Shown here: positions 54,793-64,000 of the stretch, piece by piece
Layout of the letters: each line of letters begins with the position of its first letter
Numbering within the stretch: the first letter of the stretch is position 1
Assembly (NCBI GenBank): GCA_024305105.1
Contig: JAMWZA010000007.1
Coordinates: forward strand, 1-64,000
Reading direction: 5' to 3'
DNA from: Marinoscillum sp.
GTDB lineage: Bacteria; Bacteroidota; Bacteroidia; Cytophagales; Cyclobacteriaceae
DNA: 64,000 bases
Translations under genes and position numbers: made by a program
The notes under the pieces: model-generated
Seen by the model: the letters and a program-made list of their open reading frames with translations, nothing else
What the model was told of the DNA's origin: nothing
The model's database searches: none

Positions 54793-55431
54793 CTAAAAGC
54801 GCTTAAACCAACCCATTTTCAGCCAAAGCCTTGTCCTTGACGCAGTGCCAAAATCCGCATCTATCCTGTAATCAGGACCGATCTGCAGTCGACTATGATC
54901 TGGCAAATAAATACCCAATGCAAGGACCAGTCTATTCTCCCAGGAAGAAGTATTTCCCTGATAGGCATAGATCAACTCATCAGATAACATTACATAAGCA
55001 GAACCCCTATAAAAGATTTTTGGCACTGAAATCGGTAGCGCAAACGCCACTGGTCTGACGCTCCTGTTTCAAATGTCTGATCTGCACGTATTCGGTGATT
55101 TAGCTTAATCCGCTCTTGTGAATTACTCCAAGAGACTTGCTGGATGCTTCGGTGATTATCAATACCTGGCTGAATTCGATACTGGTAGCCAATAGCCACT
55201 TTGTATCGACCCCTTAACTGGTATCCAACAAAACCCTGTAGATCTGTACGGTCGTGGAAGTATTTAAATTGGTCATTTCCCTCCAATATTGACTCTATCA
55301 GACCGTGTTGGGATTCTATTTTTAGTTTTAACGTGAAGCGCTGACCTACTGATTTGGTAATGCCTGTTTCTGGAAAGAACCCTCCATAATTCGTTTGGCT
55401 TGAGCCAACAAAATATCAGAAGCTTATACAT
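54793..55431 (-). pseudogene. Frameshifted DUF2490-family gene remnant
   Basis: Two adjacent minus-strand frames (about 55410-55035 and 55050-54793) together read as a DUF2490-type barrel: the first gives GQRFTLKLKIESQHG, GRYKVAIGYQYRI and DQWRLRYRF, and the second continues with LPISVPKIFYRG, SAYVMLSDELIYAY and ENRLVLALGIYLPD. The frame changes near 55035, where DQWRLRYR continues naturally only if one base is added or removed. At the 5' end a possible ATG (55431) starts a hydrophobic stretch that must also change frame near 55410. Two lesions make a degenerate gene likelier than a single sequencing error. The intact relative is at 29136-29870. Confidence 0.62.
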
Positions 55432-55538: not shown

Positions 55539-56780
55539 TCAGTCCTTGTATTTGACGTTCCAAACAAATAGCGGCAATACCATAGCCACGACTGCCGCTA
55601 TGAACCAAAAGATCTTTACCTGCTCGAAATCATACGTATTGACACTTTCGATCACTTCTAATCCATCTTCAATAAATAACCCGCTGATTATGTCCTGGAT
55701 CCCTGCTCCTAGATAACTAGCAATACCGACGAAACCCAGCGCTGTGCCTGAGACATTTTTCGGGCAAATATCTACCACCATCAGACCTCCCAGATAGACC
55801 AGCAATGCCCCAAGAGCCAAACCGAATAAAGCCATCGAAAAAATATCCAGATACCAGTTAGCCGGCGCAAAAACGAATAAGCCAGTTGCTAGTGCGTAAG
55901 CTGCGCCGAATAACAGCACCGGCATATTGCGTCTTCCCTTGAAAAGCGTATCTGAAATGATCCCTGAAAAGAACGTGCCTAATATTCCAAAAATGGCATT
56001 GACCGAAATAATAGATCCGGCCTCAATTAAGCTATACCCTTTTTCATTTTGGAGGAAGAAGACTCCCCATGAGTTAATGCCGTATCGGGTGATGTAAAAT
56101 GAAGCACTGGCCATAGCGATGATCCAGACATTGGGGTTCATGAAAACACTCAACTGTGTTTTCCCAAGTGACTTATTGGCATTATCCGAATTATCCGGAG
56201 CTGGATGTGGTTTGAGAAAAATAAAGATTAAAGCAGCCATAACCATCGCACTAATCCCGGCAGCTCTAAAGCCCCATTGCCAACCAAAATAGGATACCAC
56301 TACTGCTGTGACTAAGAAGGTGACTGCCTCGCCAATGTTGTGACTGGAGCTCCACATGCCATAAAAACTCCCTCGATTTTTGCCACTAAACCAGCGCGAA
56401 ATACTCACAACGCTGGAAGGAGCACCCATGGACTGAAACCACCCATTAAGCCCCCAAAGTACGGCAAAAGCAAAGAAGCCTTCTGAAAAGCCCAGTAGTA
56501 TGTTGATGAGCGCTGAGACAAATAATCCTAAAGACATCAGGTAACGGACATTCACTCGATCAGCAATGATGCCGTTGACCAACTTCCCCACTGCATAAGC
56601 GAAGAAAAGTGCAGAACCGATGTATCCAATTTCTGAAGTAGTGAAAATATTATCCTCAGTTAGCGAATTTTTGGTCAGGTTAAAGCTTAACCGTGTCACA
56701 TAGAAAAAACCGTAACCGAAGGTTGTAGATAGAAAAACAGCCCATTGATCACGAGAAATACCTTTTAAAAGTTTAGTCAT
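55539..56780 (-). CDS. MFS transporter, organophosphate (GlpT/UhpT)-type
   Basis: 413 residues with 12 predicted membrane helices. Phrases such as GYGFFYVTRLSFNLTKNSL at the start, GALFFAYAVGKLVNGIIADRV (loop 2-3 signature) and FGWQWGFRAAGI follow the organophosphate:phosphate antiporter family, which exchanges glycerol-3-phosphate or sugar phosphates for phosphate in the inner membrane. It is 6 bases downstream of a GDPD gene, whose product would release glycerol-3-phosphate, supporting a GlpT-like function. Confidence 0.85.
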   Translation of the reverse strand: MTKLLKGISRDQWAVFLSTTFGYGFFYVTRLSFNLTKNSLTEDNIFTTSEIGYIGSALFFAYAVGKLVNGIIADRVNVRYLMSLGLFVSALINILLGFSEGFFAFAVLWGLNGWFQSMGAPSSVVSISRWFSGKNRGSFYGMWSSSHNIGEAVTFLVTAVVVSYFGWQWGFRAAGISAMVMAALIFIFLKPHPAPDNSDNANKSLGKTQLSVFMNPNVWIIAMASASFYITRYGINSWGVFFLQNEKGYSLIEAGSIISVNAIFGILGTFFSGIISDTLFKGRRNMPVLLFGAAYALATGLFVFAPANWYLDIFSMALFGLALGALLVYLGGLMVVDICPKNVSGTALGFVGIASYLGAGIQDIISGLFIEDGLEVIESVNTYDFEQVKIFWFIAAVVAMVLPLFVWNVKYKD

Positions 56781-56786
56781 GGAATG

Positions 56787-57704
56787 TTAATTGAGCTGAT
56801 TATGGAGTTGCTTTTTTTCTAAATAATCGAGTAATAGCGCTGGTCTGTCAGTCTGGATCAATGTGGCACCATTCTCAACAATCCATCCGTAGGATGATTT
56901 GAGATCGTCTAGAGCGAGATCATCGCTGTGACCACCATTAAGGTCGTCCCATAGGCTATTGATCCAAATTCTTTTATCTGCTTCATTGATAGTGTTTACA
57001 ATATCCTGTGTTAGATACTTATCATCACTAAAAACCAGCTCAAAAGCGATCGCAGCATCCTGTTTGATATATTCCTCAATAATCATGGTAGCATTCGTAT
57101 CGGCCAAGTCCACAATGGGCATAAAAATCACCTGATCCAGATATTCACCGAACTCTTTTTCTACCACCGCATAAGGTTTCTTAGCTTTCATCACCACCTG
57201 ATCAATCGTTTCCGTTTTTCGTAAAACTTCATATACCTGGTCGAAATAGTTGTAGCTTTTATCGAGGTTTACAAGAACCCTTCCTTTTGCTTCCAACAAG
57301 GCTTCTTCTAGCGTCGGTATTTTAAATCGGGTAACTCGTCCCTGTCCATTTTTGAGGTTTAGGGTTTTTAAGGAGTCCAGTGTCCATTGGCTTACGAGAC
57401 CTTTCCCATTGGTTGTTCGATCAATGGTTTTATCATGCATGATGACGAGCTGATTGTCTTTTGTTTTTCTCACATCTATTTCCACCATGTCTGCTCCCAT
57501 TGCTATGGCGCTTCTAATGGCTTCCAGTGAATTTTCCGGAGCATTCCTCCAGTCTGCCCTATGCGCTATAACAAACACGTACGCTCTATCAGTACTTTTG
57601 AGTTTGGAGCTGAGCCTTTGAGCCCGGTCTTCCTGCCCAAAAAGCGAGAAATAAAGGGTGATAAAAATGGTTACTAATAGGAGAAATGGAGTGGAAAGTT
57701 TCAT
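56787..57704 (-). CDS. Periplasmic glycerophosphodiester phosphodiesterase
   Basis: 305 residues. Signal peptide (KLSTPFLLLVTIFITLYFSLFGQ), then a GDPD domain with H48/R49 (AHRAD), E75/D77 in MVEIDV, H90/D91 in IMHDKTIDRTTNG, and a terminal TLIQTDRPALLLDYL. The complete set of metal and general-acid residues is present, though HRG is HRA here. Hydrolyses glycerophosphodiesters to glycerol-3-phosphate plus an alcohol in the periplasm. In tandem with the GlpT-type transporter (6 bases) and part of the SusC/SusD operon. No PKD domain, unlike the GDPD at 59305-60408. Confidence 0.85.
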   Translation of the reverse strand: MKLSTPFLLLVTIFITLYFSLFGQEDRAQRLSSKLKSTDRAYVFVIAHRADWRNAPENSLEAIRSAIAMGADMVEIDVRKTKDNQLVIMHDKTIDRTTNGKGLVSQWTLDSLKTLNLKNGQGRVTRFKIPTLEEALLEAKGRVLVNLDKSYNYFDQVYEVLRKTETIDQVVMKAKKPYAVVEKEFGEYLDQVIFMPIVDLADTNATMIIEEYIKQDAAIAFELVFSDDKYLTQDIVNTINEADKRIWINSLWDDLNGGHSDDLALDDLKSSYGWIVENGATLIQTDRPALLLDYLEKKQLHNQLN

Positions 57705-57800
57705 TTGAGTTGATTCTGATTAGTAAACATTCAGTCAAATGGTAAGGATGCCCCAAAAGGCATCCCTACCAAAATTGACCGATGTATGAAGAAGTATGAA

Positions 57801-59276
57801 TTAAAATCTACCGGTGTGTGAAGCATTTTTGCTTCTCATCGGCCATGCACTGGTTGCCAAGCCTGTTGCATTAGTTTGAATCGCATAAAGCTTGCCTGTT
57901 TCTCCCGCCTGATCTGCAGCCACATATATCGTCCCATCAGGAGCGATTGTTGGTGAACTCCAGATTTTAACTCCAAGTTGTTTTTCCTTCCACTTTTTGG
58001 TGCCATCAGGTGCGACCACATGTAAGAAGCCTGAATCATCCGTCACATAGATGTTGCCATCATTGTCTACAGCAGGTGTAGCCAGGATATTTCCATTCAC
58101 ACCATACTCCCACCTGATCGTACCGTCAGCAGGGTTCAATGCGAATAATTTCTGGTCATGGCCACCCACATAAATCGTTCCATCAGGACCAATGGCAGGA
58201 CCTCCCTGGTTTACTTTGCTGGTCATATTGGTATGCCACTTCTCACTTCCATCTGCTGCGTTGTATGCAACTACTATACCTCCAAATGCCTCATCATAGA
58301 CATTTCCTTCACCAGCAAAGTAGATGGTACCATCCTCAGCAATGGCTGCAGCAGTGGCCGTCCATCCGCCATAGGTCTTTTGCCATTTGACTGTTCCATC
58401 TGGATTAAATGCGAAGAAATCATCTCCCGTAGACCCAACGTAAATTACTCCACTTGCTCCCACAATTGGCGTAGAATTTACATCTCCACCGGTGTCGTAT
58501 CGCCATCCTTCAGTTCCATCACTATTAACGGCTATCAATTCATCTGTTTGACAACCTATGTATATTGTACCATCTGACCCTAATGCAGGACCGCTATATT
58601 TAGCATTATTTCCCATATCGAATTGCAAAGTGACGTCTCCAGATGCAGCATTAAATCCGTAGAGGTTATTGTCATAAGATCCTAAATAAATGGTACTTCC
58701 ATCATCACTTATTGTTGGCGCAGATCTTACAATGTCTCCTGTTTCATAGCTCCACACCTCCGAACCATCTTTAACTGCGAAGACATTGGCTAAGCCTTCT
58801 TTACCATTACACCCAATGTAAATGGTATTGTCATTTCCCACGGCTGGTGATGAATCCTCAATTACAGCTGGAAGATCAAACATCCACAAGGTGGTAGGCT
58901 CGGTAGTAGCTGTAGATGGCTCCAATACAGTAATCACTTTTGAAAACTCATTCTCACTTGAATTCCCATCATTGTCCGTTACCTGAAGGGTTACAGTATG
59001 CTCGCCAAGCGGTAAGGTTTTAGATGGATTCTGCTCCTCAGAAGTCTCGCCATTACCAAAGTCCCAAAGCCAGGCAGTGATCTCACCGTCCTGATCAAAG
59101 GATACATCTGTGAATACTACCGCAGTACCTTCCTCCACTTCCTCACTGCTCACTTCAAATGCAGCTACAGGAATTGATCCCATATCTACAGGATCATCGT
59201 CTTCATTACACGCAGAATAGCCAAACAGCATGACTACTGCAGCTATCCAAATTACTTTACTTTTAATCGTTTTCAT
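57801..59276 (-). CDS. PKD plus PQQ-type beta-propeller lipoprotein
   Basis: 491 residues. N-terminal hydrophobic signal ending SAC (Cys23, lipobox-like). PKD domain at about 35-118 (WLWDFGNGETSEEQNP, HTVTLQVTDNDGN), then seven or so PQQ-like propeller blades with the repeated pattern DGTIYIG/DGTIYVG and W at blade ends (about 125-485). Such propellers bind sugars or quinones or serve as scaffolds on the cell surface. It lies between two GDPD genes in the operon. Its ligand is unknown; a surface binding protein for the glycerophosphodiester substrate is a reasonable guess. Confidence 0.8.
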   Translation of the reverse strand: MKTIKSKVIWIAAVVMLFGYSACNEDDDPVDMGSIPVAAFEVSSEEVEEGTAVVFTDVSFDQDGEITAWLWDFGNGETSEEQNPSKTLPLGEHTVTLQVTDNDGNSSENEFSKVITVLEPSTATTEPTTLWMFDLPAVIEDSSPAVGNDNTIYIGCNGKEGLANVFAVKDGSEVWSYETGDIVRSAPTISDDGSTIYLGSYDNNLYGFNAASGDVTLQFDMGNNAKYSGPALGSDGTIYIGCQTDELIAVNSDGTEGWRYDTGGDVNSTPIVGASGVIYVGSTGDDFFAFNPDGTVKWQKTYGGWTATAAAIAEDGTIYFAGEGNVYDEAFGGIVVAYNAADGSEKWHTNMTSKVNQGGPAIGPDGTIYVGGHDQKLFALNPADGTIRWEYGVNGNILATPAVDNDGNIYVTDDSGFLHVVAPDGTKKWKEKQLGVKIWSSPTIAPDGTIYVAADQAGETGKLYAIQTNATGLATSAWPMRSKNASHTGRF

Positions 59277-59304
59277 ATGTGTTATTTATTTAGAGATTGT
59301 ACAA

Positions 59305-60408
59305 TTAATTATTATTTAGATACTGGATTATTTCCAGTGGGTAATCAGTTTGTATGAGCCTGGCACCAAGCGATCTGCTCCGATCCACTTCTTTGTAATT
59401 ATCAGATGAGGGACGGATATCTACATTCACATAAGCGTTTCTGAAGTAATACCAACTTTGGTTTTCTATGGCTTGCAAATAAGAATCGTTATTACCGTTG
59501 TACTGCATGACCTGAATTCCACCAATTGTTTTGAATAGGTCCAAATCTTCCTCACTTCTTAAAATCGGCATTACTACCACATCCTGAGATCGATCTGTTG
59601 CTTGAACAATTTCAGTTTTGGAGGTCAAATAGAATAAGACTTGCTTTGTCATTCCGTACATGTCTACCTGCCGAAAGACATTGTTAAATGTGGCTCCTTT
59701 CAAGTCAAAATCAATATACACTTTACCCCTTGTTATATTCAGTATATCCTCTAAAGCTGGAATGCCTTGATCTGTTTCACGACCTGATTCGTCGAGCAGT
59801 TTAAGAGCTTTTAGCTGTTCTAAGGTTAAGTCTTCTACTCGACCCGATCCATTAGTTGTTCGATCAACCGTGGCATCATGCATGAGTATCAACTCTCCCT
59901 CTTTGGTCGTTCTGACATCCAACTCAACCATCTCTACTCCGTTTTCAATTGCTCTTAAAACAGATAAGACCGAGTTTTCTGGTTGGTTTGTATTAAACCC
60001 CCTATGAGCAACTATCATGATCTCATTCTTTTCCAGTCGCTCTAATAAAGACTCTCTTTCATCAATTTCATTCGAGTAGCTTATTGTCAATTGTATACTA
60101 TGATCATCTTCAGTGCTTTGATTAGTGATTGACAGGTTTACTAAATACTTTCCAATACTTTCGTAGGAATGTACCGGACTGTGCTCTGTACTGACAGTTC
60201 CATCTCCAAAATCCCAGAGATAGGTAATCTCTCCATTAGCCATTGAGGCATTCTCAAAATGGATCTCCTCACCGACTGTGTATCGCCGATCCGAGATCGA
60301 AAATGACGCAACAATCTCATCTGACACGCGAGGATTATCAGCTTGGTTACAACTTGATGGCAGTACAAGGACTACCATCAAATTGATGAAAACAGTGTGA
60401 AACTTCAC
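59305..60408 (-). CDS. PKD-GDPD lipoprotein, surface glycerophosphodiester phosphodiesterase
   Basis: 367 residues. A hydrophobic N-terminus ends PSSC, Cys20, consistent with a lipoprotein. PKD domain at about 33-110 with WDFGDG (65-70), then GDPD core with AHRG (H135/R136), E162/D164 (VELDV), H177/D178 (LMHDATVDRTTNGSG), and a C-terminal IQTDYPLEIIQYL. All motif residues are intact. It probably sits on the outer membrane close to the SusC/SusD pair, cutting larger diesters to products that the pair imports. Spacing to the adjacent genes is 28 and 33 bases, consistent with a shared transcript. Confidence 0.85.
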   Translation of the reverse strand: MKFHTVFINLMVVLVLPSSCNQADNPRVSDEIVASFSISDRRYTVGEEIHFENASMANGEITYLWDFGDGTVSTEHSPVHSYESIGKYLVNLSITNQSTEDDHSIQLTISYSNEIDERESLLERLEKNEIMIVAHRGFNTNQPENSVLSVLRAIENGVEMVELDVRTTKEGELILMHDATVDRTTNGSGRVEDLTLEQLKALKLLDESGRETDQGIPALEDILNITRGKVYIDFDLKGATFNNVFRQVDMYGMTKQVLFYLTSKTEIVQATDRSQDVVVMPILRSEEDLDLFKTIGGIQVMQYNGNNDSYLQAIENQSWYYFRNAYVNVDIRPSSDNYKEVDRSRSLGARLIQTDYPLEIIQYLNNN

Positions 60409-60441
60409 TTTACCGAATTTTAAATAGTATATGAATTGAAC

Positions 60442-62196
60442 TTATTCCCAATTAGGATTTTGGCTCAAATTTGGATTCAATAGGATATCGCCGGATGGAA
60501 TTGGGTAGAGGTAGTCTCTACTTTCATCAAACGACTTTGTGCGATCAGCAAATGGCACGATGTTTCCAGAATTACCATTAGAGAAATTCAGTACTCCTCC
60601 AATCTCCACCGGTTGTAATCCTGTAGTTGGAGATCCTTGAAATAATTCTATGTCATCATTTCCATCGCCATCGAGATCAAATGTACCTAAGCCCGGAAAG
60701 TACATTCCTTGAAAATGATTTTCCAGGAGATTACCAGCTTTCCATCGCATCAGGTCATCATACCTGAAGCCTTCCATTACCAGCTCCACTCTTCTTTCCC
60801 TACGAATTTCAAGTAACACGCCCAGATTGCTCCCAGATACGCTGCTATACCTGGACTGAAGGATCGGATCCACATTTGTGTTCGCATTCGCCAAATTTAA
60901 AAAAGGCATACCCACACGTTGTCTCAATGCATTTACACTCTGGTCAAGATCACCTTGAGTAAGTGTACCCATTTCTGCTTTCGCCTCTGCATAATTGAGC
61001 AGTACCTCACCATATCTAATAATCGGCAGGTCTTGAAAGCTGGCCTCAAACCCATCCTGACTTTCATCCAGTAAATACTTCACTATTTGGTATCCACTAA
61101 TCCCGACAGAAAAATCTGGGAGTAATTCAGTTCCATCACCTCCGATTCTTGTATAACCGGGTGTTCGAATTGTCTGTGCCAGGCGAGGATCCCTATTCGC
61201 TGTTTCTTGATCAAACATCATTGTTTGGGATCCAGGCAAAGACGTAAAAGGCGCACCACCGGAAGTGAGGTATGTATCGACGATTGATTTTGTTAAGCTT
61301 ACATCTTGCTGAGTAGGTGACGTGAAGTAGTAGTTTACATTATTCACCACATTTAAGTCTGAATTGTACCGTCTTGTCAGCATTACTTCTTGCTCTCGTG
61401 CATTGGATGACGCAAATAAATCTCGATAATCCGAATTAGCATTCCCTGTACTGTAAAGTCTATATGGGCTTTCATTAATGACCCTACCAGCTGCTTCTGC
61501 AGCCTGTGTCAAAAGATCATCGCCTCCATCCAGGCCATGGTATTTTCTGAAAGTCCCTTCAAAAAGACAAACTCGTGATTTAAATGCCAGAGCCGTCCAT
61601 CTGGAAACCCTATCCACAGTTTGCGCAGTTCCAAGATTCGCAATTGCCGCATCAAGGTCTTCTATTATGCGATCTGTGACGAACTCACGAGAGTCTCTTT
61701 CTTTTAACAACAAATCCTCATCTCCAGTACCAATCACTCGATCATAAAATGGTACTGCTCCAAATCTCTTCAGTTTGTCGAAATAAAACCAAGCTCTAAA
61801 GAAGTGAGCTACTCCACTATACGTCAATCGAGCTTCTTCATCAGGGCAGTTTTCATAATATTCAAAAAAGATATTAATCTTTCTCAAGTCACCCCATGAC
61901 CATCCGTTACTCCCTGCTTCTCCGGGAATTACTCTTTCACCAGTCTGCTCAAATGGTACTCCATTGTAGAGTATATTGTCAGATCTTAAATCAGACTGAA
62001 TTATTCCACCCTGACCAGGCAGATCACTATAGAAACTATTCGTATATAATTCCAAATCAGCTTCTGTAGAAAATGAGTTTTCAGGTGTAATCTCTGAAAG
62101 CGGATATCTTTCTAAGAAATCATCTTCACATGCAGTAAATACTGCAAGGCTTAGTATTAATAAATATTTGATATTCAATTTCATGATTGGCTGCAT
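60442..62196 (-). CDS. SusD-family outer-membrane binding lipoprotein
   Basis: 584 residues. Signal ends FTAC (lipobox, Cys23) and is followed by EDDFLERYPLSEITPENSFS, the usual SusD N-terminus. Other SusD parts are RAWFYFDKLKRFGAVPFYD (SusD-typical aromatic TPR helix), ILLNYAEAKAEMG-like VLLNYAEAKAEMG, EIRRERRVELVMEGFRYDDLMRWK and a terminal YLYPIPSGDILLNPNLSQNP. It caps the SusC channel and binds the substrate at the cell surface. The start could also be ATG 62184, a more typical signal peptide beginning. SusC stops 1 base before the longer start, so the two are tightly coupled. Confidence 0.9.
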   Translation of the reverse strand: MQPIMKLNIKYLLILSLAVFTACEDDFLERYPLSEITPENSFSTEADLELYTNSFYSDLPGQGGIIQSDLRSDNILYNGVPFEQTGERVIPGEAGSNGWSWGDLRKINIFFEYYENCPDEEARLTYSGVAHFFRAWFYFDKLKRFGAVPFYDRVIGTGDEDLLLKERDSREFVTDRIIEDLDAAIANLGTAQTVDRVSRWTALAFKSRVCLFEGTFRKYHGLDGGDDLLTQAAEAAGRVINESPYRLYSTGNANSDYRDLFASSNAREQEVMLTRRYNSDLNVVNNVNYYFTSPTQQDVSLTKSIVDTYLTSGGAPFTSLPGSQTMMFDQETANRDPRLAQTIRTPGYTRIGGDGTELLPDFSVGISGYQIVKYLLDESQDGFEASFQDLPIIRYGEVLLNYAEAKAEMGTLTQGDLDQSVNALRQRVGMPFLNLANANTNVDPILQSRYSSVSGSNLGVLLEIRRERRVELVMEGFRYDDLMRWKAGNLLENHFQGMYFPGLGTFDLDGDGNDDIELFQGSPTTGLQPVEIGGVLNFSNGNSGNIVPFADRTKSFDESRDYLYPIPSGDILLNPNLSQNPNWE

Positions 62197-62197
62197 T

Positions 62198-64000
62198 TTA
62201 AAATTTGATATCTAAACCAACTGCGTATGTCTTTGTGAACGGGTAGTCATTCCCGTTTCCTAGTTGCTCCGGATCTATGGTTCGATCCGGGTTGTTCTCA
62301 TAAAGTGGTGAGAAAGTGAACAAATTTATTCCGGTGGCATAAACCCTTAGACTTGCTATTTTAAGATTATTGGTTAGGCCCGAAGGAAGCGTATACCCTA
62401 CCGTAATATTTTTGACTCTTAAATAAGCGGCATTTTGCAAGTATTTATCAGAGTTCACTCCCAATTGAGCCCCTTCATATGGCCCACCTCTTTCCGCATA
62501 TACTGCTAGTCTTGGAAAATAAGCGTCACGATTTGTCTCTGACCATGCAAGACTTTCGATACTTTTTGGGTAAAAGTTTTGATATTGTCTGGTATAAGGC
62601 CCCCAAAAGAACCCATTGTCCGTGCCAGGTAGCCAATCTCTTTGCATAATGCCCTGAGCAAACACACTTACATCAAAACCCATGTAATCTGCTCCAAGGT
62701 TGATTCCATAACTATACCTTGGTGTGGTATTCCCTATTCTCTTTAAGTCTCCAGGGTTGTCTAACGTTAAGTCACCTGGGGTAATTCTACCATCACCATC
62801 CAAATCAGCAAATTTAATATCACCAGATACTGGATGATTAATGAGGTAATTGTTTCTGATTCGTTCATTAACCAACGTTTGATCTGCATGAGTTAGGTAT
62901 TCATTGTCATCCTGAAAAAAACCTTGAACTGTATATCCCCAAATCTCACCGAGTTCCTGACCTTCATAGTATTGCTGAATATCCCCATTAGGATTGTCAA
63001 ATTTGGTTATATGTGTTCGACTATCTGCTAAGTAAACGCCTATGCGGTAGTTTAACGATTTTGAGCCTATTGCGATCCGGTCTCTCCAGTCAAGAGTTGC
63101 TTCGAAACCTCGTGTTCTCAAATCAGCTGCATTCTCTTCGGGTTCAGAAGCTCCGAACACAGAGGGTAATTCTCTACCTTGTGTCAACATGTCAACTACG
63201 TCTCGCTGATACCAATCAAACGATGCTTGAAGGCGATCGTCCAGAAAACCCATATCCAAGCCTATATCAGTAGTTGTTGAAGTCTCCCAGGTGAAGTTAG
63301 ATGAAACGGGAGAAGGAGTCGTTAGATAATTTATCCTACCGCCATTGGCTATGTAATTAGATTGATTGATTGAGAGTGTAGAAATGTAATCGTATGGTCC
63401 GATGTTCTGATTTCCTAGTGAACCGTAGGAACCTCTTATTTTAAACTCATTCACAATGCTCGCAATAGAAGACCAAAAAGTCTCCTCACTAACACGCCAA
63501 GCAGCTGAAGCAGAAGGGAAAAAACCAAATCGAGCATCGGTTGGAAATCTTGATGACCAATCGAAACGACCATTAAATTCAATCAAATACCTATCAGAGA
63601 AGTTGTATTTTAATCGATAAAACCCTGCACGAATAGCCCATTCTTCTTCTGTTGAAGTGAGGAATACATTATCGCCAGTTGCTAAATTAAATGAATTCAG
63701 GTTTTGAGATAAGTTACCATTTCTACTCGCGATATTTCTCTTAAAAGAATTCCACTCCTGGTTGAAACCCACAAGTGTATTCAAAGAGTGATTTTCCGAA
63801 AATGAAACGGTATAATCAGCATAGGCATTTATGGCCTGATAAAGTGTGGTTCGTTGTAACTCCTTGTAAGTCTCCGTATTGGGTTTATACAGGGCGACTC
63901 CCTGACCGTTTGGTTGATTGGTAAACGGAGTTGCTATGATTCTCACATTCTCTTGTTGAAGGCGATTTCTAAAGGTGTAGTTCCCCTTGATATTTAATCC
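62198..64000 (-). CDS. SusC-family TonB-dependent receptor, C-terminal part (cut by window end)
   Basis: The reading frame is open to the last base of the window, so the N-terminal plug, signal and carboxypeptidase-like domain lie outside. The 600 visible residues are beta-barrel of TonB-dependent transporter type: the family-typical RYLIEFNGRFDWSSRFP segment, the extended RIRNNYLINHPVSGDIKFADLDGDGRITPGDLT insert, YGINLGADYMGFDVSVFAQGIMQRD, and ending TYAVGLDIKF with C-terminal Phe. It imports substrate with the SusD protein downstream (1-base gap). Confidence 0.88.
   Translation of the reverse strand, partial: GLNIKGNYTFRNRLQQENVRIIATPFTNQPNGQGVALYKPNTETYKELQRTTLYQAINAYADYTVSFSENHSLNTLVGFNQEWNSFKRNIASRNGNLSQNLNSFNLATGDNVFLTSTEEEWAIRAGFYRLKYNFSDRYLIEFNGRFDWSSRFPTDARFGFFPSASAAWRVSEETFWSSIASIVNEFKIRGSYGSLGNQNIGPYDYISTLSINQSNYIANGGRINYLTTPSPVSSNFTWETSTTTDIGLDMGFLDDRLQASFDWYQRDVVDMLTQGRELPSVFGASEPEENAADLRTRGFEATLDWRDRIAIGSKSLNYRIGVYLADSRTHITKFDNPNGDIQQYYEGQELGEIWGYTVQGFFQDDNEYLTHADQTLVNERIRNNYLINHPVSGDIKFADLDGDGRITPGDLTLDNPGDLKRIGNTTPRYSYGINLGADYMGFDVSVFAQGIMQRDWLPGTDNGFFWGPYTRQYQNFYPKSIESLAWSETNRDAYFPRLAVYAERGGPYEGAQLGVNSDKYLQNAAYLRVKNITVGYTLPSGLTNNLKIASLRVYATGINLFTFSPLYENNPDRTIDPEQLGNGNDYPFTKTYAVGLDIKF

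Follow-up and report, generated by a model that had tools for sequence, protein, structure and literature searches.

A FecR/ECF-linked SusC/SusD operon of Marinoscillum sp. with two glycerophosphodiester phosphodiesterases and a probable role in phosphodiester uptake

The window analysed here comprises 64,000 bp of DNA, bases 1-64000 of a contig (C264) with a total length of 73,004 bp. ORF calling identified six consecutive genes on the minus strand encoding SusC, SusD, a first glycerophosphodiester phosphodiesterase (GDPD1), a beta-propeller protein, a second GDPD (GDPD2) and an MFS transporter, with intergenic gaps of 1, 33, 28, 96 and 6 bp from SusC to MFS. The same order and close spacing on one strand had been proposed in a preliminary description and are borne out by the ORFs together with Pfam and NCBIfam matches. 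The features, from upstream to downstream, are:

67083-67727 (contig, beyond the window), minus strand: ECF sigma factor, same strand as SusC and upstream of it
65899-66936 (contig, beyond the window), minus strand: FecR, same strand as SusC and upstream of it
62198..64000, minus strand: SusC-type TonB-dependent transporter, C-terminal 600 aa in the window (ORF; TIGR04056 above cut-off)
60442..62196, minus strand: SusD/RagB-type surface lipoprotein, 584 aa (PF07980, SusD_RagB, 1.3e-44; by eye, a lipobox Cys (FTAC) and then EDD)
59305..60408, minus strand: GDPD1, PKD and GDPD domains, predicted lipoprotein (by eye), 367 aa, GTG start (PF03009, 3.2e-26)
57801..59276, minus strand: PKD and PQQ-type beta-propeller lipoprotein, 491 aa (PKD and PQQ_2/ACSF4; N-terminus ...YSAC-NEDDD by eye)
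56787..57704, minus strand: GDPD2, GDPD and DUF4996 domains, 305 aa (DUF4996, PF16387, 1.1e-30)
55539..56780, minus strand: organophosphate-type MFS transporter, 413 aa (MFS_1, 1.5e-49; homology, tree and residues)
54796..55415, minus strand: probable frame-broken DUF2490 gene downstream of MFS (piece 54993-55415 against DUF2490, 1.2e-14)

The complete SusC gene (62198-65770 on the contig, 1190 aa) runs past the end of the window, and its position 1 bp from SusD is the adjacency expected of a SusCD or PUL-like uptake locus. Signal peptides and lipoboxes of the window proteins were assigned by eye; GDPD2, with a signal peptide lacking a lipobox cysteine, is probably periplasmic, and the PKD-propeller lipoprotein is a possible surface ligand-binding protein. 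The 54796-55068 piece of the DUF2490 candidate lies in a different frame and gave no match in Pfam, and its link to the 54993-55415 piece was drawn by eye only. An intact DUF2490 gene occupies the corresponding position in a related locus (L088). Base composition gave no signal of foreign origin (GC 40.7% in the cassette, 40.2% in window positions 1-55000).

SusCD loci are usually read as sugar systems. As the preliminary description had noted, no glycoside hydrolases are present, and Pfam reported no carbohydrate-active enzyme (CAZyme) from the ECF gene through the MFS gene, which sets the locus apart from a classical PUL. The window operon also contains no sugar genes and, by Pfam, no phosphomonoesterase. 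Two GDPDs beside SusCD do conform to the definition of Pus loci as SusCD with phosphodiesterases or phosphatases.

A regulator had been anticipated past position 64000, and examination of this sequence revealed the FecR and ECF pair linked to the SusCD locus on the same strand, so the operon extends beyond the six genes first described. The presence of ECF and FecR suggests an external ligand. A FecR-coupled SusC is expected to carry an N-terminal signalling (STN) domain; Pfam reported none on SusC at E 1e-3, though an N-terminal extension of approximately 130 residues exists. A terminator-like stem of 16 pairs with a T-rich tail (consensus match only) lies between the ECF gene and an SSF symporter gene, and this stem together with 458 bp separates the ECF end of the operon from the SSF, transaldolase and transketolase genes that lie further upstream. 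A set resembling these three genes comes after the cassette in Polaribacter (L105), and a functional link may exist.

Both GDPDs retain the residues H-R...E-D...H, which we take to be the catalytic His-Arg, the Glu/Asp metal ligands and the second His. These are H135, R136, E162, D164 and H177 in GDPD1 (invariant in 6/6 alignment rows and kept too in the row of a further locus, L144) and H48, R49, E75, D77 and H90 in GDPD2 (invariant in 10/10 rows). The accessible part of an account of GlpQ agrees with these roles (PMC7086022). Coverage by the GDPD HMM is confined to the first half of both enzymes, with DUF4996 spanning the remainder of GDPD2, and the AlphaFold model of GDPD1 forms a full barrel (mean pLDDT 85). 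The best PDB match of both enzymes is 3i10, a GDPD structure from Bacteroides thetaiotaomicron, which aligns with GDPD2 at 303 bits across residues 42-302; lysophospholipase D types (8ghh, 7ymq) are also among the structure matches of the GDPD fold.

The MFS transporter had been described as GlpT-like and of the organophosphate type, which held only in part. GlpT/UhpT homology and the paired arginines place it among organophosphate:phosphate antiporters in the broad sense, and R45, K80, H165 and R269 of GlpT are retained in 32/32 rows of its clade. However, its best NCBIfam match (TIGR00881) scores under the cut-off, it reaches 165.9 bits against the glpT equivalog (cut-off 632.55), and it falls in a clade apart from GlpT in trees that place both the E. 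coli rows and the window row on long branches. GlpT K46 is replaced by Leu and D274 by Ser in all 32 clade rows, and diminished binding has been reported for GlpT K46L in the accessible part of PMC4598623. The equivalog cut-off and the absence of K46 and D274 rule out a plain GlpT. As these two residues are missing, glycerol-3-phosphate (G3P) may not be the cargo, and the earlier assertion that the transporter moves G3P into the cytoplasm is unsupported as stated, since the protein is not a GlpT equivalog.

Searching genomes for the same gene order, as had been suggested, showed that the SusCD-GDPD arrangement recurs in Bacteroidota. In a phylum sample of 395 genomes the DUF4996 domain was found at 12 places in 11 genomes, the genome studied here being the sole representative of its family among them. 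SusC-SusD lies upstream in the same run at eight of the 12 places, directly adjacent at six; at two of the eight (the window and L144) GDPD1 and the propeller sit between SusD and the DUF4996 gene. No SusCD was found at two of the 12, L156 and a second place in our own genome (L009). Seven genomes of the order (~50 Mb) contain 266 SusD genes, or ~0.5% of genes assuming 1 gene/kb, and given this rough background the chance of SusD lying directly upstream at 6/12 places is ~2e-11.

We also compared 80 named loci, the best 80 of at least 370 confirmed relatives, near-identical pairs (L095/L097) and partial contigs included. ORF calling kept the longest non-overlapping ORFs, so that genes can vanish under antisense ORFs; six loci in which an antisense ORF displaced the central GDPD ORF were left out. 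Among the remaining 74 of these best 80, the operon run of the central GDPD includes SusC or SusD in 53 (both in 47), MFS in 30 and a propeller in 21. The order SusC-SusD-GDPD-propeller-GDPD-MFS is repeated in L066 and L144, and L076, L083 and L085 have the window order plus additional genes; L066, L076, L083 and L085 belong to the best 80. L085 comes from Polaribacter septentrionalilitoris, a cultured species, and related loci also occur in Bacteroides oleiciplenus (L060), B. clarus (L098) and Aquimarina longa (L071). Similar clusters are scattered over Bacteroidota, gut species included.

The MFS clade is not restricted to GDPD cassettes. Outside our own genome the phylum sample contains eight members of the clade, three with a GDPD nearby (L144, L147 and L148) and five with none visible, one of which (L146) lies at a contig end. 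Across the sample a clade MFS accompanies a DUF4996-GDPD at only two of the 12 places.

Related loci carry further phosphoester genes including PhoD, Exo_endo_phos, HAD, metallophosphatase, NAGPA (phosphodiester glycosidase) and SGNH esterase. A PhoD-family gene is present in L055 and, by clustering only, in L083, and in L076 a phosphate-selective porin O/P adjoins the MFS gene. A Maribellus locus (L112) has NAGPA, GH20-SGNH, Exo_endo_phos and GDPD after SusCD, and L118 also contains GH20. Sugar genes include GalT and an epimerase-family gene in L085, an FGGY kinase and a xylose-isomerase-like gene in L105, GalT adjoining GDPD in L161 and phosphomannose isomerase in L081. SusCD-containing runs hold 128 genes outside the core clusters, of which 54 were covered in two tallies (25 families listed of 36 and of 35) and the rest partly scanned, singly or by cluster representative. 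GH20 accounts for 4 of the 54 tallied genes among the matches listed; those of L112 and L118 were confirmed individually, and the remaining two were assigned from cluster membership to L077 and L100, in both of which GH20 lies ahead of the ECF gene. As some extra genes lie outside the scan, glycoside hydrolases in the relatives may be undercounted. These additional genes appear to point to a phosphodiester polymer or a phosphoglycan.

We propose that the operon probably serves, under ECF/FecR control, the uptake of a polymer or oligomer that contains glycerol phosphodiesters. At the cell surface, the lipoproteins SusD, PKD-propeller and PKD-GDPD1 would bind and cut the substrate, SusC would import the pieces using TonB energy, periplasmic GDPD2 would release a glycerol-phosphate or glycosyl-phosphate unit, and the organophosphate MFS would carry the released phosphate ester to the cytoplasm. 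The genome contains a GlpD-type gene elsewhere (C2:14639-15019), whose product would oxidise sn-glycerol-3-phosphate. FecR and the ECF factor would control the operon. The placement of one GDPD as a surface lipoprotein suggests a large substrate. The sequence does not discriminate between teichoic-type polymers, phospholipid head groups and glycosyl-phosphate glycans as substrates.

The closest published idea, judging from the accessible text, is that of the Flavobacterium 'phosphate utilisation systems' (Pus; PMC8115612), and it is quite conceivable, if somewhat short of an even chance, that phosphate starvation induces the operon and that small glycerophosphodiesters or lipid head groups serve as a phosphorus source, not as a carbon polymer. 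According to that text, PUSI and PUSII of F. johnsoniae resemble the window in combining SusCD with phosphodiesterases or phosphatases without CAZymes and are induced by phosphate depletion, PUSI contains an ECF sigma factor, and inner-membrane transporters for organic phosphorus are present in some further Pus clusters (PMC8115612). The porin O/P beside MFS in L076 also favours phosphorus scavenging. However, the enzymes of PUSI and PUSII named there are of metallophosphatase and PhoA types (pf00149/pf16670 for the PUSI phosphodiesterases), no GDPD-propeller-GDPD-MFS block was seen in them, and the accessible main text mentions neither 'pf03009' nor 'GDPD', with 'glycerophospho' in one reference title only (PMC8115612). 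The lack of a phosphomonoesterase in the window operon seems to suit import of a phosphate ester, not of free Pi, and a surface GDPD again suggests a larger substrate. A slightly less probable alternative is that the target is a glycan (capsule, wall polymer or phosphomannan) with a glycerol-phosphate or sugar-phosphate repeat, whose phosphodiester links the GDPDs remove or cut. The L112 gene set, GH20 in L118 and the sugar genes of L085, L105, L161 and L081 argue for it. Glycoside hydrolase and sugar genes are, however, absent from the window operon, and the sugar genes vary among loci and may in some cases be no more than neighbours.

That the operon serves to turn over envelope lipids of the cell itself, with lost material recaptured through SusCD, is improbable; lysophospholipase D types do fall within the GDPD fold, but the sporadic distribution of DUF4996 (11/395 genomes) is unsuited to a housekeeping role and ECF/FecR suggests an external ligand. 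Chance assembly of GDPDs and MFS near an ordinary SusCD pair is the least credible explanation, being contradicted by the gene order repeated across genera and the SusD adjacency count, despite clade MFS genes also occurring without GDPD.

Other described systems share parts of the arrangement. E. coli glpTQ likewise pairs a GDPD with an organophosphate MFS but has no adjoining SusCD in the stretch compared, and the window MFS belongs to another clade lacking K46 and D274. In B. subtilis, where GlpQ (exo) and PhoD (endo) turn over wall teichoic acid, a GDPD cuts polyglycerol phosphate, although of the cell's own Gram-positive wall and without SusCD import, according to the accessible text (PMC7086022). 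SusCD also lies near a GDPD in the gut model species B. thetaiotaomicron (TonB receptor and SusD BT4724-25, GDPD BT4727; accessible part of PMC10434189) and in a Flavobacterium IR1 PUL which, unlike the window, carries GH65, GH97 and GH13 (accessible part of PMC9131120). Within the literature searched, mostly outside subscription papers and partly as excerpts, we found no description of a GDPD/DUF4996-SusCD-MFS operon and no mention of 'DUF4996'.

Uptake of phosphodiesters, and not of a polysaccharide, had been the preliminary interpretation, to be abandoned if CAZymes were found upstream, if the GDPDs were inactive or if the MFS were unrelated to phosphate esters. None of the three refuted it, the catalytic residues of both GDPDs suggesting that activity may be retained, but 'not a polysaccharide' is too strong, since GH20, phosphodiester glycosidase, GalT or mannose genes in related loci make a phosphoglycan fit equally. 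Given GH20 or sugar genes in some of these loci, the substrate of the proposed phosphodiester uptake may be partly glycan. More tentatively, and with rather low probability, this may be a locus dedicated to teichoic-acid utilisation, with which Bacteroidota including gut Bacteroides harvest the glycerol-phosphate polymers of Gram-positive neighbours. They would do so by means of GDPDs at the surface and in the periplasm, SusCD, and a separate clade of organophosphate transporters whose cargo is not plain G3P. If the proposed uptake function is true, a recurrent GDPD-based SusCD module, served in part by a transporter clade of its own, would widen the known imports of Bacteroidota, and DUF4996 and the MFS clade would gain a role. 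The module would then offer a direct way to ask whether gut and marine Bacteroidota live on phosphate polymers from cell walls or on the head groups of lipids.

The minus strand of the window carries six genes in the order SusC, SusD, GDPD1 (a predicted lipoprotein with PKD and glycerophosphodiester phosphodiesterase (GDPD) domains), a PKD-PQQ propeller, GDPD2 (a GDPD and DUF4996 protein) and an organophosphate-type MFS transporter, with intergenic gaps from SusC to MFS of 1, 33, 28, 96 and 6 bp; open reading frames and family matches agree with the closely spaced one-strand order of the preliminary description. The contig (C264; 73,004 bp) extends beyond position 64000, where the regulator that had been sought was found as a FecR and an ECF sigma factor encoded upstream of SusC on the same strand. 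Full-length SusC taken from the contig has 1190 amino acids, with a carboxypeptidase-regulatory domain and a plug, and Pfam reported no STN signalling domain on it. The reported lack of glycoside hydrolases was borne out by Pfam from the ECF gene through the MFS gene, and membership of a classical PUL fails on CAZymes. A terminator-like stem lies between the ECF gene and the next gene upstream, an SSF symporter, beyond which are transaldolase and then transketolase; this trio (C264 68186-72830) adjoins the cassette, as the same trio does in Polaribacter filamentus (L105). Downstream of the MFS gene lies the following feature:

Window 54796-55415, probable DUF2490 outer-membrane protein gene, apparently frame-broken

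The match to the family comes from only one of its two pieces. At locus L088 the MFS gene is directly followed by an intact DUF2490 gene.

The same-order search across genomes suggested earlier showed that the SusCD-GDPD arrangement recurs in the order, in the phylum and among named genomes. Using GDPD2 as query against 194 genomes of the order and counting matches above 220 bits, we identified eight loci in seven genomes, the Marinoscillum genome contributing two. SusCD-type context was present at seven of the eight, counting the window and the truncated L042, in which SusD is seen upstream of the GDPD. FecR-SusC-SusD-GDPD occurs in L040, L041, L043, L044 and L045; each is preceded by an ECF gene, which in L043 and L045 is encoded on the other strand. 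The own-genome paralogue L009 (10415-18528), a second DUF4996 GDPD, is without SusCD and adjoins a hybrid two-component regulator at the contig end, with a SASA-type esterase on the opposite side. Within a phylum sample of 395 genomes, own genome included, DUF4996 was found at 12 places in 11 genomes, with 10 of those genomes above the cut-off. SusD lies directly upstream at six of the 12 (L154, L155 and L157-L160), while at the window and L144 GDPD1 and the propeller separate the DUF4996-GDPD from SusC-SusD upstream. At L047 and L161 a SusC or SusD gene is encoded on the same strand several genes off, and neither was found near DUF4996 at L009 and L156. Since seven genomes of the order sample (~50 Mb) contain 266 SusD genes, chance direct adjacency should be near 0.5%. 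Among the best 80 of 370 confirmed relatives, 74 loci had a readable centre, and these included SusC or SusD in the run at 53 (both at 47), MFS at 30, the propeller at 21, FecR at 32 and ECF at 21. L066 (Flaviramulus) and L144 share the window order SusC-SusD-GDPD-propeller-GDPD-MFS, and additional genes accompany it in L076 (Phocaeicola), L083 (Aestuariivivens) and L085 (Polaribacter). In L062 (Bacteroides stercorirosoris), SusD-GDPD-propeller-GDPD is present, with GDPD-MFS farther along. Cassette-like genes are also present on contigs binned to a KSB1 MAG (L054) and an Opitutaceae MAG (L127). The Opitutaceae MFS clusters with that of the window (97/92, long branches), a grouping which may reflect transfer, misbinning or artefact.

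Both GDPDs are supported as active phosphodiesterases, no substrate being named thereby, by invariant catalytic residues (H48, R49, E75, D77 and H90 of GDPD2 in 10 aligned rows; H135, R136, E162, D164 and H177 of GDPD1 in six), by alignment of GDPD2 residues 42-302 to PDB 3i10 (303 bits) and by the AlphaFold model of GDPD1 (mean pLDDT 85). The model consists of PKD-domain strands followed by an alternating strand-helix barrel; its best PDB match is likewise 3i10, and B. subtilis GlpQ (5t9b) and phage GDPD domains match too.

The transporter had been described as GlpT-like, which holds for R45, K80, H165 and R269 of E. coli GlpT, all kept together with tyrosines 38, 42, 76, 266 and 393, but membership of GlpT itself fails on both cut-off and residues. 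Throughout the cassette clade, the group of MFS proteins around that of the window (32 rows: 31 loci plus the window, five shorter fragments omitted), K46 is replaced by Leu, D274 by Ser, E299 by Ser or Ala and Y362 by Gly. In the available text on GlpT, a salt bridge links K46 to D274 in one state, and K46 contributes to outward-facing binding, which K46L weakens (PMC4598623). The clade separates from GlpT, UhpT and UhpC with 100/100 support in a tree with long branches, and an upstream MFS paralogue in L089 falls outside it. From sequence we infer that the window MFS would carry a phosphate ester, with the non-phosphate part of the site changed. No second match to it was found in the own genome at E 1e-5. 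Clade MFS are present at only two of the 12 DUF4996 places (the window and L144), and a search started from the MFS matched nine of 395 genomes at 1e-40, own genome among them. Eight of the nine places in other genomes are clade members, three with a GDPD nearby (L144, L147 and L148) and five with none (L145, L146, which begins at a contig end, and L149-L151), which counts against the clade being exclusive to GDPD cassettes. The remaining place, L152, combines a nearby GDPD with an MFS outside the clade. H165 is missing in L145 and L146, and the L150 MFS is adjoined by a metallophosphatase and a PfkB kinase.

Genes beside related cassettes include PhoD, DUF218, metallo-beta-lactamase, a xylose-isomerase-like barrel, HAD, Exo_endo_phos, nucleoside phosphorylase, porin O/P, an epimerase-family gene with GalT, an FGGY kinase with a xylose-isomerase-like gene and SSF, phosphomannose isomerase, a GDPD-SGNH esterase fusion and, in Maribellus, NAGPA with a GH20-SGNH fusion. 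Taken together, and with GlpQ and PhoD described in the available text as a wall teichoic acid pair of B. subtilis (PMC7086022), these companions make a substituted phosphodiester polymer or phosphoglycan the favoured target, although they vary by locus and some may be unrelated. In Flagellimonas (L069, L084 and L090) the GDPD is followed by a metallo-beta-lactamase-like cluster gene and a nucleoside-phosphorylase family gene, the latter scanned in L069. The own genome contains five GDPD matches. It also has a GlpD-type gene (C2:14639-15019), so sn-glycerol-3-phosphate could be used. That gene sits in a cluster (L008 10870-19426, contig C2) with an FGGY kinase, a GH13 enzyme, a metallophosphatase, another GDPD and an SSF symporter; at a guess, the cluster might encode a glycosyl-glycerol pathway.

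SusCD loci for organic phosphorus have been published in Flavobacterium, although the phosphodiesterases mentioned in the accessible text differ from the GDPDs of the cassette (PMC8115612). Excerpts of two further sources list a TonB receptor/SusD pair (BT4724-25) and GDPD BT4727 in a B. thetaiotaomicron expression table (PMC10434189) and show SusCD and glycoside hydrolases in the vicinity of a GDPD on a PUL map of Flavobacterium IR1 (PMC9131120). No description of the present cassette was found in the available portions of the literature searched. The cassette is best read as a real, recurrent phosphodiester-uptake operon, and for the sugar-poor form found in the window, a simple glycerol-phosphate polymer or glycerophosphodiesters would be a fitting substrate.
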